This document shows, one piece after another, positions 28,048-36,226 of a stretch of 64,000 nt of DNA. The notes under the pieces are model-generated. The model worked only from the letters and a program-made list of their open reading frames with translations, was not told the origin of the DNA and did no database searches. This DNA comes from Moritella marina ATCC 15381. Its GTDB lineage: Bacteria > Pseudomonadota > Gammaproteobacteria > Enterobacterales > Moritellaceae. How positions within the stretch are numbered: position 1 is the first letter of the stretch; every line of letters starts with the position of its first letter. The stretch is from positions 992,001 to 1,056,000 of the forward strand of contig NZ_CP044399.1 in assembly GCF_008931805.1 (NCBI RefSeq), read 5' to 3'. A program made the translations under genes and the position numbers.

Positions 28048-29583
28048 ATGTCTCAAGAATCAATCGATGCTGCACAAACTGCGATAAACGCAGCACAAGC
28101 AGCAGTAGATGCAGCAACACAGGCTGCACAAGTGGCACAAACTGCGGTTGCAGAACAAGCGCCAGTAGTTATTGAAGCTGTACAAGAAGTTGCTGTTGCA
28201 ACAAGTGGTAAAGGTATTTTAGAAGCGGCTTATATCGCTGCTGCGGTACTATTCGTACTTGCTCTTGCTGCACTATCAAAGCAAGAAACAGCACAAAAAG
28301 GTATTTTCGTTGGTATTCTAGGTATGGTTGTCGCGGTTGTTGCAACTTTATTTAGCAGTGACGTAACGAATATCGGCTATATCATTGCCGCTATGCTTGC
28401 TGGTGGTGCATTTGGTGTACGCTGGGCAAACAAAGTTGCGATGACTGAAATGCCTGAAATGGTTGCTATCCTAAACAGCTTTGGTGGTTTAGCGGCAGTA
28501 TTCATCGGTTACAACAGCTATATCGAACACAGTATTACAGAACCAGTTATGTTAAGCATTCACTTAACGTTGATCTTCCTGGGCGTATTTATTGGTATCG
28601 TAACATTTGTTGGTTCATTAGTTGCTTGGGGTAAATTGAACGGTCGAGTTAAATCGAGCGCGTTAATGTTACCACACCGCCATAAAATGAACTTAGCAGC
28701 ATTGCTAGTGATTGTGTTCCTAATGTTCTCGTTTGTTGGTGCTGGCCTTGAAGGCGACACTGCTGCATTAGTTATCATGAGCCTTATTGCCATTGTATTT
28801 GGTGCTCATTTAGTATTATCAATTGGTGGCGCAGATATGCCAGTTGTTGTCTCTATGCTGAACTCTTACTCTGGTTGGGCTGGTGCGGCTACAGGTCTTA
28901 TCTTAGGTAATGATCTGTTAATCGTAACGGGTGCACTCGTTGGTTCTTCAGGCGCAATCTTAAGTTATGTAATGTGTAAAGCGATGAACCGTTCGTTTAT
29001 CTCTGTAATTGCTGGCGGCTTCGGTAACGATGTTGCTGCACCAACAGGTGATGAAGAGCAAGGCGTTCACGTTGAAACATCTGCTGCTGAAGTTGCAGAG
29101 ATGCTAATGGGCTCTAAGCGTGTAATCATCACTCCTGGTTACGGCATGGCTGTTGCACAAGCACAGTACCCTGTATTCGCTATCACGAAGAAATTACGCG
29201 ATGCGGGTGTTGATGTTCGCTTTGGTATTCACCCTGTTGCGGGTCGTTTACCGGGTCACATGAACGTACTACTTGCGGAAGCAAAAGTACCTTACGATAT
29301 CGTATTAGAAATGGATGAAATCAACGAAGATTTCAATACCACTGATACTGTACTTGTGATTGGTGCCAATGATACGGTGAACCCTGCGGCGAAAGAAGAA
29401 AACTCGCCAATCTCAGGAATGCCAGTACTTGAAGTTTGGAACGCGACTAACGTTGTGGTATTCAAGCGTAGTATGGCGACTGGTTATGCTGGTGTTCAAA
29501 ACCCATTGTTCTTCAAAGAAAACACAACTATGCTATTTGGCGATGCTAAAGAGTCTTGCGAGCAGATTATTTCTGCAATGTAA
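28048..29583 (+). CDS. pntB: NAD(P) transhydrogenase subunit beta with N-terminal Ala-rich extension
   Basis: Membrane domain II and NADP(H)-binding domain III of the transhydrogenase. The body matches E. coli PntB (462 aa): [116 protein letters not shown]. It is 511 residues because about 50 extra residues precede the first helix. These are Ala/Gln/Val repeats that look like an amphipathic helix. The ATG at 28048 follows AAGGA and no ATG or GTG lies at the usual start, so the extension is probably real. The 3' end is duplicated downstream. Confidence 0.95.
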
Positions 29584-29648
29584 GTGGGTTTTAGTTAGTT
29601 GATTTGTAGATACGAAAAAAGGACATCATTTGATGTCCTTTTTTTATG
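29540..29648 (+). repeat. pntB 3'-end repeat, copy A (functional gene end plus terminator)
   Basis: The last 44 bp of pntB and the following terminator are repeated at 34784-34891. Across 109 positions the two differ by three substitutions and one single-base indel. The first 52 bp are identical. Confidence 0.95.
29615..29645 (+). terminator. Terminator after pntAB
   Basis: AAAAAAGGACATCA / TGATGTCCTTTTTT with a 2-nt loop, 31 nt after the pntB stop. It is part of the duplicated segment. Confidence 0.93.
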
Positions 29649-29809
29649 CCAAATTATTATGCGTTTAGTTGCATTGTCATAAACAAAATTATGGATATTG
29701 CCGGATGTGGCTAGTTAAGTATATTAATTAAATCATGATGTTGAACTGTACTCAATTTGAGTTAGAATGATCATATTGAACGAACTGATTTAAAGTAGGT
29801 ATATATATT

Positions 29810-30220
29810 ATGGCTGATGTGAAATGGGAAGCTGCACCTTCGGGTCTTACAAGTGGTGATTTAAACGGTTGGAAACGACGGATGGCGCTAGCTTGTCCTA
29901 GCCCTAAGTTGGGTCAAATGGTTGCTGTCGAGACGGATGATAGCGATGGGAAAGTTATTCATATTGGTTATAAGTGTATACGTGCTGATGGTGAGAATAG
30001 TTCTTGGCGTCGCATGAAAGGCACTGAAATTGTTATTACACCGGAAACTATCATCATTAAAGGAGCTGTCACTGAAAGTGGGCAGCAAGCAACGCTGAGT
30101 GATGTATTTTTAGGTAATGCGAGTACAAGCTCTGGTATTCCGGTAACTATGTCAGATGACGGACCTGGGGTTTATCTTGGTGACGGTGTTTATGTATCTG
30201 CGGAAGATTGTTGGTTTTAA
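29810..30220 (+). CDS. Hypothetical protein, 136 aa, island gene
   Basis: Not recognised. It begins MADVKWEAAPSGLTSGDLNG and has a likely beta-rich core (IHIGYKCIRADG, EIVITPETIIIKG). A Gly/Ser/Thr-rich C-terminal third contains GPGVYLGDGVYVSAEDCW. There is no signal peptide or membrane helix. The ATG at 29810 follows GTAGGTATATATATT, a usable but distant ribosome site. It is the first gene after the pntB terminator and convergent with the HEPN gene, with a 9-bp hairpin in between. Whether it works with the other island genes is unknown. Confidence 0.65.
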   Translation: MADVKWEAAPSGLTSGDLNGWKRRMALACPSPKLGQMVAVETDDSDGKVIHIGYKCIRADGENSSWRRMKGTEIVITPETIIIKGAVTESGQQATLSDVFLGNASTSSGIPVTMSDDGPGVYLGDGVYVSAEDCWF

Positions 30221-30251
30221 GTATTTTTGATATTTCAAATTGTCTAAATTA

Positions 30252-30292
30252 GGTTGTAGTTTTTCTAAAGTATTTATTTTAACACTACAACC
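30252..30292. terminator. Inverted repeat between convergent island genes
   Basis: GGTTGTAGT (30252-30260) and ACTACAACC (30284-30292) form a 9-bp stem around a T-rich 23-nt loop. The position between two gene ends suggests a weak shared terminator. Confidence 0.45.
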
Positions 30293-30306
30293 AATTATGC
30301 TGATTT

Positions 30307-34615: not shown

Positions 34616-34699
34616 CTAATTTATAATAAAGAAAACAAACTTACCTATAGTTATTAACTCGTTTACTTTTTCGTATTCCTCAAATGATGCAGTACTCAC
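34616..34699 (-). pseudogene. Possible truncated gene start near the island's right end
   Basis: On the minus strand a GTG at 34699 follows AAAGGTAAGCAA and opens 27 codons beginning (M)STASFEEYEKVNELITIGK, then quickly terminates. In the same frame upstream, codons continue back to about 34783 with one TGA. This looks like the start of a gene whose body was lost by deletion. Not recognised, low confidence. Confidence 0.25.
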
Positions 34700-34783
34700 T
34701 TGCTTACCTTTGAACTTATCTCCTGACTTAGCACGTCAATACCGATACGCTGTATCTCTAACATCTCGGTGCGTTACATTTTT

Positions 34784-34891
34784 GCGATGCTAAAGAGTCT
34801 TGCGAGCAGATTATTTCTGCAATGTAAGTGGGTTTGGTTAGTTGATTAGTAGATACGAAAAAGGGACATCATTTGATGTCCTTTTTTTATG
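34784..34891 (+). repeat. pntB 3'-end repeat, copy B
   Basis: It encodes [17 protein letters not shown] and carries the same terminator hairpin as copy A, about 96% identical (three substitutions, one indel). It is not attached to any open pntB frame. It marks the junction between units 1 and 2. Confidence 0.95.
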
Positions 34892-35251
34892 GTTGATAGT
34901 TTATTTAAGAACCTGCAATAGGTTTATGGGTCTAATCTTGGATTTTTAATAAATTAATTATGAACTAGGATGTGCTTGATTATATTAAGTTTATTTTCTG
35001 TAGCTGGTTCCAATCATTGGGATTATTATTGATAGGTATGGTATCAATAAAGATGGTTAATGTTTTCAATTACTTACTTTGCTTATCCAGTTGAATTCCG
35101 CTAAATTAGCGTGAAATTTAAACTCAAAGAGTCGTCTCGGCGTTGATTCTAAGACTTTCAGGATGACGACTATGTTTCTATCCATGTGATTGATCTTTAG
35201 AGATTGAGTAGATCTGAATTCCACCATCGCAAATAAGTTACAAGCGGAAAC
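34892..35251. other. Gene-free stretch after copy B
   Basis: 360 bp, AT-rich, no credible frame. A GTCGTC..GACGAC dyad with about 28 nt between arms lies near 35131-35170. The promoter of the lipoprotein gene is presumably here. Confidence 0.4.
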
Positions 35252-36100
35252 ATGATGTCATTTAAAAAAGTATTACTAGCAAGTATCATCGCATCAACCC
35301 TAGTTGGTTGTGATTCTTCATCGCCAGATAGCGTAATCGCTCCTGCACCAGTCACGTTAACTATCCCAACAGAAATGCAAGCTCAAGATGTAAGTGGTTG
35401 TGACAATGAATACATGGTTACTCACTCAATTGAAATGCGTGATGATCTAGAGCTTCCAGTAAATGTGGCAGAAGTTCGATCTGTATGTAATCCAGAATTA
35501 TTTGTTGAATATGATGTTGCCGAAGTAGATAAGCCGATGGTTCATATTAATTGGGCGAAGGAAGTATTCAGTGAAGATGGTGATTTGATTATGTATCAGG
35601 GTGGTCATGCAAAACCATCTAGTTCAGCAGCGCATGATAAGTTAGCTGCGGAACGTGGATACCGTGGTTATTATCTAACATTAGATGAATTAGGTGGTTA
35701 CATTAACGCAAATGAAGTAACAGATATTACTTATTTTTCTTCTGGTAATTATCATCACACTTTTACAAGTGGTTTAGATAAACAATCATATACAATAATA
35801 GACAACACTATCGATACTGTAGTTGTGAGTGCTGCTATGTTCGTAGACCCAACCAAAGTCGATGAACATGATTGGAATGAATTTTGGTATGAATGTACTG
35901 GTACTGTCACTAGTATAGGTTCTAACGAAACAATGGGTTGCTTGGTTCACAAAGCTGGTGCACCAAAGTATCAATTTCAGACTATCACAGTTGATATGAA
36001 CAATTTTCCAAAACCGACTAAGTTTAAAGAAGATTACGCACATGCAACTCAGATGTATGTTGAAAAAGCATTCACTGATAATGGGATTATGATTGAATAA
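35252..36100 (+). CDS. Predicted lipoprotein, 282 aa, island gene
   Basis: The N-terminus MMSFKKVLLASIIASTLVGC has a lipobox (LVGC, Cys about 20), followed by a short Ser/Pro/Ala-rich linker. The mature part is acidic and has three further cysteines in pairs likely to form disulfides (GCDNEYM, SVCNPELF, YECTG, GCLVHKAG). No family recognised. It is the only gene between copies B and C. The start is one of two adjacent ATGs with a weak upstream GCGGAAAC site. It could be a surface or exclusion lipoprotein; that is speculation from location. Confidence 0.7.
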   Translation: MMSFKKVLLASIIASTLVGCDSSSPDSVIAPAPVTLTIPTEMQAQDVSGCDNEYMVTHSIEMRDDLELPVNVAEVRSVCNPELFVEYDVAEVDKPMVHINWAKEVFSEDGDLIMYQGGHAKPSSSAAHDKLAAERGYRGYYLTLDELGGYINANEVTDITYFSSGNYHHTFTSGLDKQSYTIIDNTIDTVVVSAAMFVDPTKVDEHDWNEFWYECTGTVTSIGSNETMGCLVHKAGAPKYQFQTITVDMNNFPKPTKFKEDYAHATQMYVEKAFTDNGIMIE

Positions 36101-36178
36101 CATTTGAATTCAATCAAGAATCATATTGGATTGGTGATGGTTCATAACTCTTTAATATAACGTGTTGGTACGTTGTAT

Positions 36179-36226
36179 TTCACTGATGCTAAAGAAAGCG
36201 TAGAAGAAATCTTCAAAGCAATGTAA
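36179..36226 (+). repeat. pntB 3'-end remnant, copy C (diverged)
   Basis: In frame it reads FTDAKESVEEIFKAM-stop against [19 protein letters not shown] in the intact gene. The core GATGCTAAAGA is identical in all three copies; downstream codons and the 3' UTR differ. It is followed by a different terminator. It may be the original chromosomal pntB end displaced by insertion. Confidence 0.75.

Follow-up and report, generated by a model that had tools for sequence, protein, structure and literature searches.

The 3′ end of pntB, the gene for the beta subunit of NAD(P) transhydrogenase, is present three times in a 64-kb stretch of the Moritella marina ATCC 15381 genome (G000:C2:992001–1056000, where G000 is the strain's own genome; the whole stretch is referred to below as the window). 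The second and third copies lie downstream of the gene itself, and the DNA between the three copies forms two insertions, elements 1 and 2, ahead of a conserved aspC-type aminotransferase gene. We propose that these insertions arose by stepwise, site-specific accretion at the pntB 3′ end of elements that carry no recombinase, similar to cis-mobilizable elements (CIMEs), and that were moved in trans. We assign this reading a probability of about 0.78.

The core shared by the copies, GATGCTAAAGA, occurs at exactly three places in the window (29542, 34786 and 36185), against a mean of 0.00 in 100 shuffled sequences, which bears out the three pntB ends described in an earlier sequence-only reading of this DNA. 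Copies A and B are 96% identical over 112 bp (E 1.6e-45) and do not differ at all over the 42 nt from the core through the stop codon, the segment used here for all comparisons of ends, including those with relatives. The three substitutions and one indel previously counted between them are recovered when the gap is placed by hand; a MAFFT alignment puts it elsewhere. Copy C had been described as diverged and followed by a different terminator, and both points hold: it differs from A or B at 16 of the 42 nt and has its own stem. A terminator scan listed the terminator of C on the plus strand and the hairpin of B on the minus strand only, and did not list that of A. By eye, A and B both have a plus-strand terminator, GGACATC-ATTT-GATGTCC followed by T7. 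The pntB gene of the window now terminates with the element-type C-terminus, and PntB is still 511 aa long. From the pntB stop (29583) to the aspC start (36452) there are 6,868 bp, and this interval is AT-rich, as had been noted, with a GC content of 0.32–0.37 in 1-kb windows vs 0.43–0.44 in pntB. The coordinates of all features are collected in Table 1.

Table 1. Features of the pntB–aspC region, in window coordinates.
Feature	Position	Strand	Basis or comparison
pntB (NAD(P) transhydrogenase beta subunit), target gene	28048..29583	+	Open reading frame (ORF) list; Pfam PNTB 6.3e-188
Copy A: pntB 3′ end and terminator; attL-like left boundary of element 1	29540..29648	+	Repeat to 34784–34891
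Element 1, ~5.2 kb: copy A, 136-aa gene, three more genes, resolvase remnant, right-end half-site	29542..34785	+	Core repeats as bounds
136-aa ORF, common to the window, G006 and G008 elements	29810..30220	+	3/11 genus genomes
408-aa protein with HEPN/Toprim N-terminal domain and RiboL-PSP-HEPN	30307..31533	-	Pfam PF18871 4.1e-41, PF18735 7.6e-11
381-aa protein; apparent signal peptide and membrane segment (by eye)	31879..33024	+	No family above cut-off
486-aa protein; coiled-coil and membrane segments (by eye)	33073..34533	-	Weak matches only
Remnant, C-terminal half of a serine resolvase gene	34642..34781	-	81.6% to L051 16857–16997; protein-level match with internal stop
27-bp half-site, right end of element 1	34759..34785	+	24/27 to G006, 23/27 to G008 resolvase gene, 17/27 to element 2
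Copy B: displaced pntB end and terminator; left boundary of element 2	34784..34891	+	Tail common to G007
Element 2, 1.4 kb; sole insertion in G007	34786..36184	+	93.9% over 1728-bp match with L035, flank included
282-aa lipoprotein-like ORF, cargo of element 2	35252..36100	+	G000 and G007 only (2/11 genus genomes); no family above cut-off
27-bp half-site, right end of element 2	36158..36184	+	21/27 to G008 resolvase gene, 20/27 to G006
Copy C: original (native) pntB end DAKESVEEIFKAM-stop and own terminator (stem 36273–36294)	36185..36300	+	Comparison with relatives; terminator scan
aspC-type aminotransferase, conserved right flank	36452..37642	+	Pfam Aminotran_1_2; 3′ of pntB in 10/10 relatives

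The significance of copy C becomes clear from the other Moritella genomes. Ten of these (G001–G010) were compared, with 20 kb taken from pntB in each. The sequence-only reading had predicted strains in which pntB runs straight into the copy C end, and such an empty site, with 223–226 bp between the pntB stop and aspC, is found in seven of the ten (G001, G002, G003, G005, G008, G009 and G010). An eighth, G004, also has the native end and a longer gap of 672 bp. The remaining two, G006 (Moritella sp. JT01; locus L043) and G007 (locus L035), are occupied at the same position as in the window, with gaps of 6,604 and 1,630 bp, respectively. Thus a three-copy layout common to all relatives, which would have spoken against mobility, is not what is seen; sites are empty, singly occupied or, in the window, doubly occupied. 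The pntB end of the eight insertion-free genomes differs from copy C at only 0–2 of the 42 nt, compared with 16 for A and B and 19 for the left end in G007, and none of the eight has the copy A type of end. For this reason copy C is the original end, and A and B either came with the insertions or were copied by them. The suggestion that C is original therefore stands; its counterpart, that every left copy arrived with its element, is less certain, and some may be due to homologous recombination or copying, since in each host of an element 1-type insertion the left copy matches the local copy type. With regard to the neighborhood of these sites, the native pntB terminator and aspC of G006 are separated by a Mem_trans (PF03547) transporter gene (L043 12160–13125). 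By eye, what appears to be left of a similar stretch is present in G004, which would account for its longer gap.

The two occupied relatives differ from one another and from the window. In G007 the insertion corresponds to element 2 alone, and its single long ORF is the 284-aa cargo gene. Since element 1 is absent from G007, it either arrived later or was lost there. The foreign and native ends flanking element 2 share little beyond the 11-bp core (16–19 of 42 nt differ). Strong matches to the tail of the foreign end are confined to G000 and G007, all others having E values of 0.015 or worse, and a scan of 394 genomes of the order for the S-type pattern of this end hit only the same two genomes. 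In G006, a different 5.1-kb insertion is located at the same base, bordered by 121-bp identical copies of the native end with its terminator, so that the predicted presence of other cargo between similar repeats is realized. Its genes encode a DUF4238 protein, the 136-aa product known from element 1 and a SIR2–HerA pair that is likely to act in anti-phage defence (PADLOC 3.5e-46 and 7.1e-178; also recognized by Pfam).

A related 27-bp sequence, here called a half-site, is located immediately 5′ of the core in all four insertions (two in the window and those of G006 and G007). The two half-sites of the window are TAACATCTCGGTGCGTTACATTTTTGC and TAACGTGTTGGTACGTTGTATTTCACT; G006 has a variant of the first and G007 the second unchanged. 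Beyond about 27 bp from the right end, elements 1 and 2 are unlike. A search of the 11 genus genomes for the half-site followed by the core, with up to three mismatches, returned the four pntB right ends only. When the half-site motif was scanned with at most one mismatch through 295 genomes of the order, it was found at the pntB right ends and once inside a serine resolvase gene of G008, a metagenome-assembled Moritella genome (MAG DT_65), and nowhere else. In the comparison made for the half-site of element 2 (Table 1), the best unrelated 27-mer of the window reached 18/27. IMG/VR contained no exact match to an 18-mer taken from the right end.

The G008 genome links these elements to a larger island, although its pntB site is empty and the island uses a different site. 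At L051 8201–23123 (L051 being joined to L049), about 14.9 kb lie between 33-bp repeats of the end of tRNA-Ala(GGC), with a tyrosine integrase adjoining the tRNA (PF00589 2.8e-10, DUF6538 3.8e-13). The island shares cargo and resolvase sequence with element 1. From about 150 bp past the integrase stop, it holds nearly all of that element (window 29672–34688, 92.6% identity over 5,041 bp), and the half-site motif lies within its intact serine resolvase gene (PF00239 1.1e-33). In both element 1 and the G006 element this resolvase gene is cut inside its coding sequence where the pntB-type sequence starts. Judging from these alignments, the element 1 type looks like island material that left the integrase behind and was truncated in its right part at the junction. 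The core genes of G000 and G008 are less similar than the cargo (pntB 88.5%, aspC 88.6%), and because 92.6% exceeds these values, the likeness of the cargo is as expected after later transfer. For G000 and G006 the contrast is weaker, with 91.0% over a shared 512 bp vs 88.1% and 88.3% for pntB and aspC. In IMG/VR, the G008 resolvase yielded one pattern stretch and no relative, and its plasmid homologues were all below 60% identity among the 5000 matches listed.

Several other features of the island were observed. It contains several small ORFs without a family above the cut-off, and a large ORF (~757 aa, of which 718 aa were searched) had no Pfam or PHROGs match. Both L051 14851–14892 and the resolvase gene (16857–16997) match the same part of the G006 resolvase remnant. 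A piece of the resolvase gene thus seems to be repeated on either side of two cargo genes (271 and 238 aa), which gives the impression that here, too, cargo modules joined the island next to resolvase fragments. The possibility that pntB is a secondary site for the island's integrase, through a GTTTGGC shared by tRNA-Ala and pntB, was dropped, as the pntB right ends were found by eye to be without GTTTGGC.

On the basis of these results, we propose the following sequence of events. The pntB 3′ end would act as a chromosomal attachment site in Moritella for small, probably circular elements made up of cargo, the 27-bp half-site, the core GATGCTAAAGA and their own version of the pntB end, terminator included. 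Crossover at the core would let the host reading frame run on into the element-borne end, followed by the cargo, with the old end pushed downstream. For the window, at least two events would be required: element 2 first, bringing the foreign end B next to the original C, and then element 1 with end A. Long repeats (121 and ~110 bp) would be expected if the element's copy came from the same lineage, and a repeat limited to the core if it came from elsewhere, as for element 2. We infer the circular intermediate and the order of crossovers; likewise, a site-specific recombinase would be supplied in trans, because none was found in the elements. Once repeats of 110–120 bp are present, RecA-type recombination could also excise, re-insert or homogenize the elements.

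The claim that no integrase is present was correct insofar as the pntB–aspC interval has no PF00589 match, but it overlooked the truncated serine resolvase remnant at 34642–34781. A recombinase acting on the GATGCTAAAGA site was sought, as the sequence-only reading had suggested, through PF00589 matches and the scan of the 11 genomes for half-site plus core, and none could be tied to the core. All ten PF00589 matches of G000 lie outside the interval, as do all 14 of G006 away from pntB and, in G007, nine of nine among the matches listed (10 in all). No transposase family was detected among the ORFs searched (Pfam, NCBIfam). Plasmid records gave no DNA match to element 1 or element 2. Elsewhere in G000, two long tyrosine recombinases (frames of 490 and 526 aa) are arranged in tandem at G000:C2:4171391–4173216, and a resolvase-type gene follows after about 3.4 kb (G000:C2:4176645–4177160). 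The group may represent a multi-recombinase island and a possible source of the helper. A Phage_integrase match at G000:C2:1964993–1965544, in a 326-aa frame with similar ones in G004, G008 and G009, has a longer-than-usual catalytic span, and we take it to be possibly an integron integrase on that account. Integrons insert at GTTRRRY motifs; no such motif was seen by eye at the pntB junction, and integron-type insertion was set aside. Five phage records contain pntB-like genes. Integrase-bearing prophages at the pntB 3′ end were considered for the viral loci L113, L114 and L117 and rejected; their integrases (PF00589) are located 1.1–1.3 kb past the pntB stop. Locus L116 extends less than 200 bp after pntB and is uninformative, and L115 and L118 were viewed as ORF lists only.

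Several observations weigh against accretion by a trans-acting enzyme. No integrase or intact recombinase was found at pntB in any of the three occupied genomes, and neither a circular form nor an excised junction was seen. A search of IMG/VR with a pntB C-terminal profile yielded seven loci, and the six that were read (L119 being left out) contained no pntB-targeting element. The two half-sites of the window agree with one another at only 17/27, a value that about 10 of some 128,000 window 27-mers reach or pass. Because this agreement is unremarkable by itself, the case for the half-site depends on its G006 and G008 versions and on its position. Left and local right copies are of one type both in G006 (0/121 differences) and in the window (three substitutions and one indel), a likeness that a purely element-borne end would not require. 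The coding part of the G007 left end belongs to a third type, differing from the native C at 19/42 and from B at 10/42, and is followed by the tail and terminator of B. These features point to a later swap between ends through homologous recombination, or to a further insertion and loss. Finally, G006 and G008 share 508 bp at 90.7%, with aspC at 90.7% and pntB at 95.7%, so later transfer is not supported for that pair.

Some of these points would be explained if homologous recombination alone were responsible, with DNA bearing pntB-end repeats acquired from close relatives and crossovers in the 110–120 bp repeats, or in pntB and aspC, swapping islands without any site-specific enzyme. Matching left and right copies within each element 1-type host, the seemingly chimeric left end of G007 and the failure to find an integrase at pntB in the occupied genomes all agree with this. 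A pntB-bounded island in Pelagibacter has been ascribed to recombination (PMC4033161). Nevertheless, we consider this explanation unlikely, since the right ends halt at the same base before the core despite unrelated interiors, and the foreign/native junction of element 2 shares too little beyond the 11-bp core (16–19 of 42 nt differ) for RecA. An identity of 11 bp is below the RecA requirement.

The insertion mechanism itself could instead have duplicated the target over about 110–120 bp, starting at the core and ending shortly after the terminator. Both element 1-type left copies are local in type and end 3–5 nt past the T-run despite different terminators, as such a mechanism would predict. 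However, the two ends of element 2 are not copies of one another, selection for a working terminator would account for the end point, and at rbgA the repeats of Tn5253 vary in length through ordinary site-specific integration (PMC8571831). Duplication of this kind is possible but less economical than site-specific accretion, and we regard it as very unlikely. A target-duplicating transposon was rejected, given that the repeat length is not constant (core only, ~110 and 121 bp) and that no transposase family was found.

It is highly improbable that the elements were integrated by the XerCD recombinase of the host at a dif-like site, in the manner of integrative mobile elements exploiting Xer (IMEX). 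Taken together, the right end and the core resemble two 11-bp arms separated by a 6-bp spacer, which match Xer arms at 15/22; however, 65 window sites score at least 15 (spacers 6–8), the dif-like site ACTGCGCATAATGTATATTATGTTAAAT found in two of four Moritella genomes is without the GGTGCG start, and no inner palindrome is visible by eye at the junction. An assembly artefact or simple tandem duplication has no direct support, beyond G008 being metagenome-assembled, and its probability is negligible, as the assembly has only two contigs, the one that holds the window being 4.73 Mb long, and the independent genomes G006 and G007 have the same site occupied with different content.

Replacement of a gene's 3′ end by an incoming element is known from e14 at icd. 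CIMEs of the ICESt1 type, which accrete in tandem at gene 3′ ends (PMC5704250), work in the way seen at pntB. Judged from sequence, the pntB elements retain att-like sequences at both borders, and no integration or transfer family was recognized among the window ORFs, a negative that rests on the absence of hits. In contrast to those CIMEs, no decayed backbone of an integrative and conjugative element (ICE) or integrative and mobilizable element was found at pntB, nor any member with an intact pntB-specific integrase. The CIME label is therefore tentative, with working att sites and descent by decay of a larger element both being putative. More generally, the site shares with integrative elements at gene 3′ ends the coexistence of empty and occupied sites and border repeats that restore the gene; an integrase of the elements' own was not found.

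The ssrA islands of Dehalococcoides (PMC3146451) are in tandem, have gene-end repeats, include several without an integration module, and share a short conserved motif just 5′ of the repeat, 15 bp long compared with 27 bp at pntB. They differ in using an RNA gene and a 20-bp repeat, and 16 of them possess an integration module, whose integrase, DsiB, is CcrB-like. The repeats of Tn5253 at rbgA (PMC8571831) measure 83–84 bp in the home species but only 17 bp when the host is distant, with a conserved 11-bp core. Tn5253 resembles the pntB elements in its protein-gene target, the 11-bp core, the long and short repeats and the restored gene, but it uses the 5′ end of the gene and is a self-moving 64.5-kb ICE. 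SCC/ECC cassettes (PMC6222049) are likewise modular and occupy a conserved protein gene, rlmH, at its 3′ end. Conversely, they have ccr large serine recombinases and ~50-bp repeats with a TATCATAA motif, none of which is present at pntB. Membership in that family was rejected; the site is pntB, not rlmH, and the resolvase sequence there amounts to a short piece of a small enzyme. SXT has a secondary site in pntB, reported to be at the 5′ end and used only without prfC (PMC2297512). Variable regions adjoin pntB in Photorhabdus/Xenorhabdus (PMC3091717) and in Pelagibacter (PMC4033161). No earlier report of the pntB 3′ end as an integration target appeared among the matches listed in our literature searches.

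The cargo was searched against Pfam, PADLOC and NCBIfam, and "no family" here means none above the cut-off. Four of the five cargo ORFs of the window elements have no strong family match. The 408-aa HEPN/Toprim protein is presumably involved in conflict or defence, judging from its domain names; it had no PADLOC match. The 486-aa protein gave PADLOC SduA at 9.3e-4 and NCBIfam SMC_prok_B at 3.3e-4, far under the cut-off of the latter. The 136-aa ORF has no family in the three collections, and its AlphaFold model is poor, with a mean predicted local distance difference test score (pLDDT) of 39.5. Distant relatives (~30% identity, E 3e-9) are present in three large Vibrio phages, D69, D148 and D181; that of D69 sits among small hypothetical genes near the Srd anti-sigma factor. 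In IMG/VR the protein yielded three pattern stretches but no relative, and two relatives in genome contigs are those of G006 and G008.

A more far-reaching possibility may be considered. The pntB site could host a cassette system without an enzyme of its own, including at least one defence-gene cassette, stacked by a recombinase encoded elsewhere, with the newest cargo always next to pntB. Such minimal cassettes would consist of cargo, a 27-bp half-site born in a serine resolvase gene, a core and a substitute gene end with its terminator. The helper could be a small serine recombinase of G008-type islands. As a whole, we regard this picture as speculative and rather unlikely to be correct in all its parts.

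This mode of insertion is already known for mobile DNA, and the pntB 3′ end as its target is apparently new. A conserved metabolic gene thereby contributes its 3′ end to the known chromosomal landing sites, with the full series found within one genus: empty, one insertion, a different one, and two stacked. In Moritella, the pntB–aspC interval is a place to seek defence-type genes. The finding raises a testable question, namely, which recombinase moves elements that carry none. Wider use of the pntB site may be possible, because its target codons, GDAK, are invariant across 14 aligned pntB sequences.

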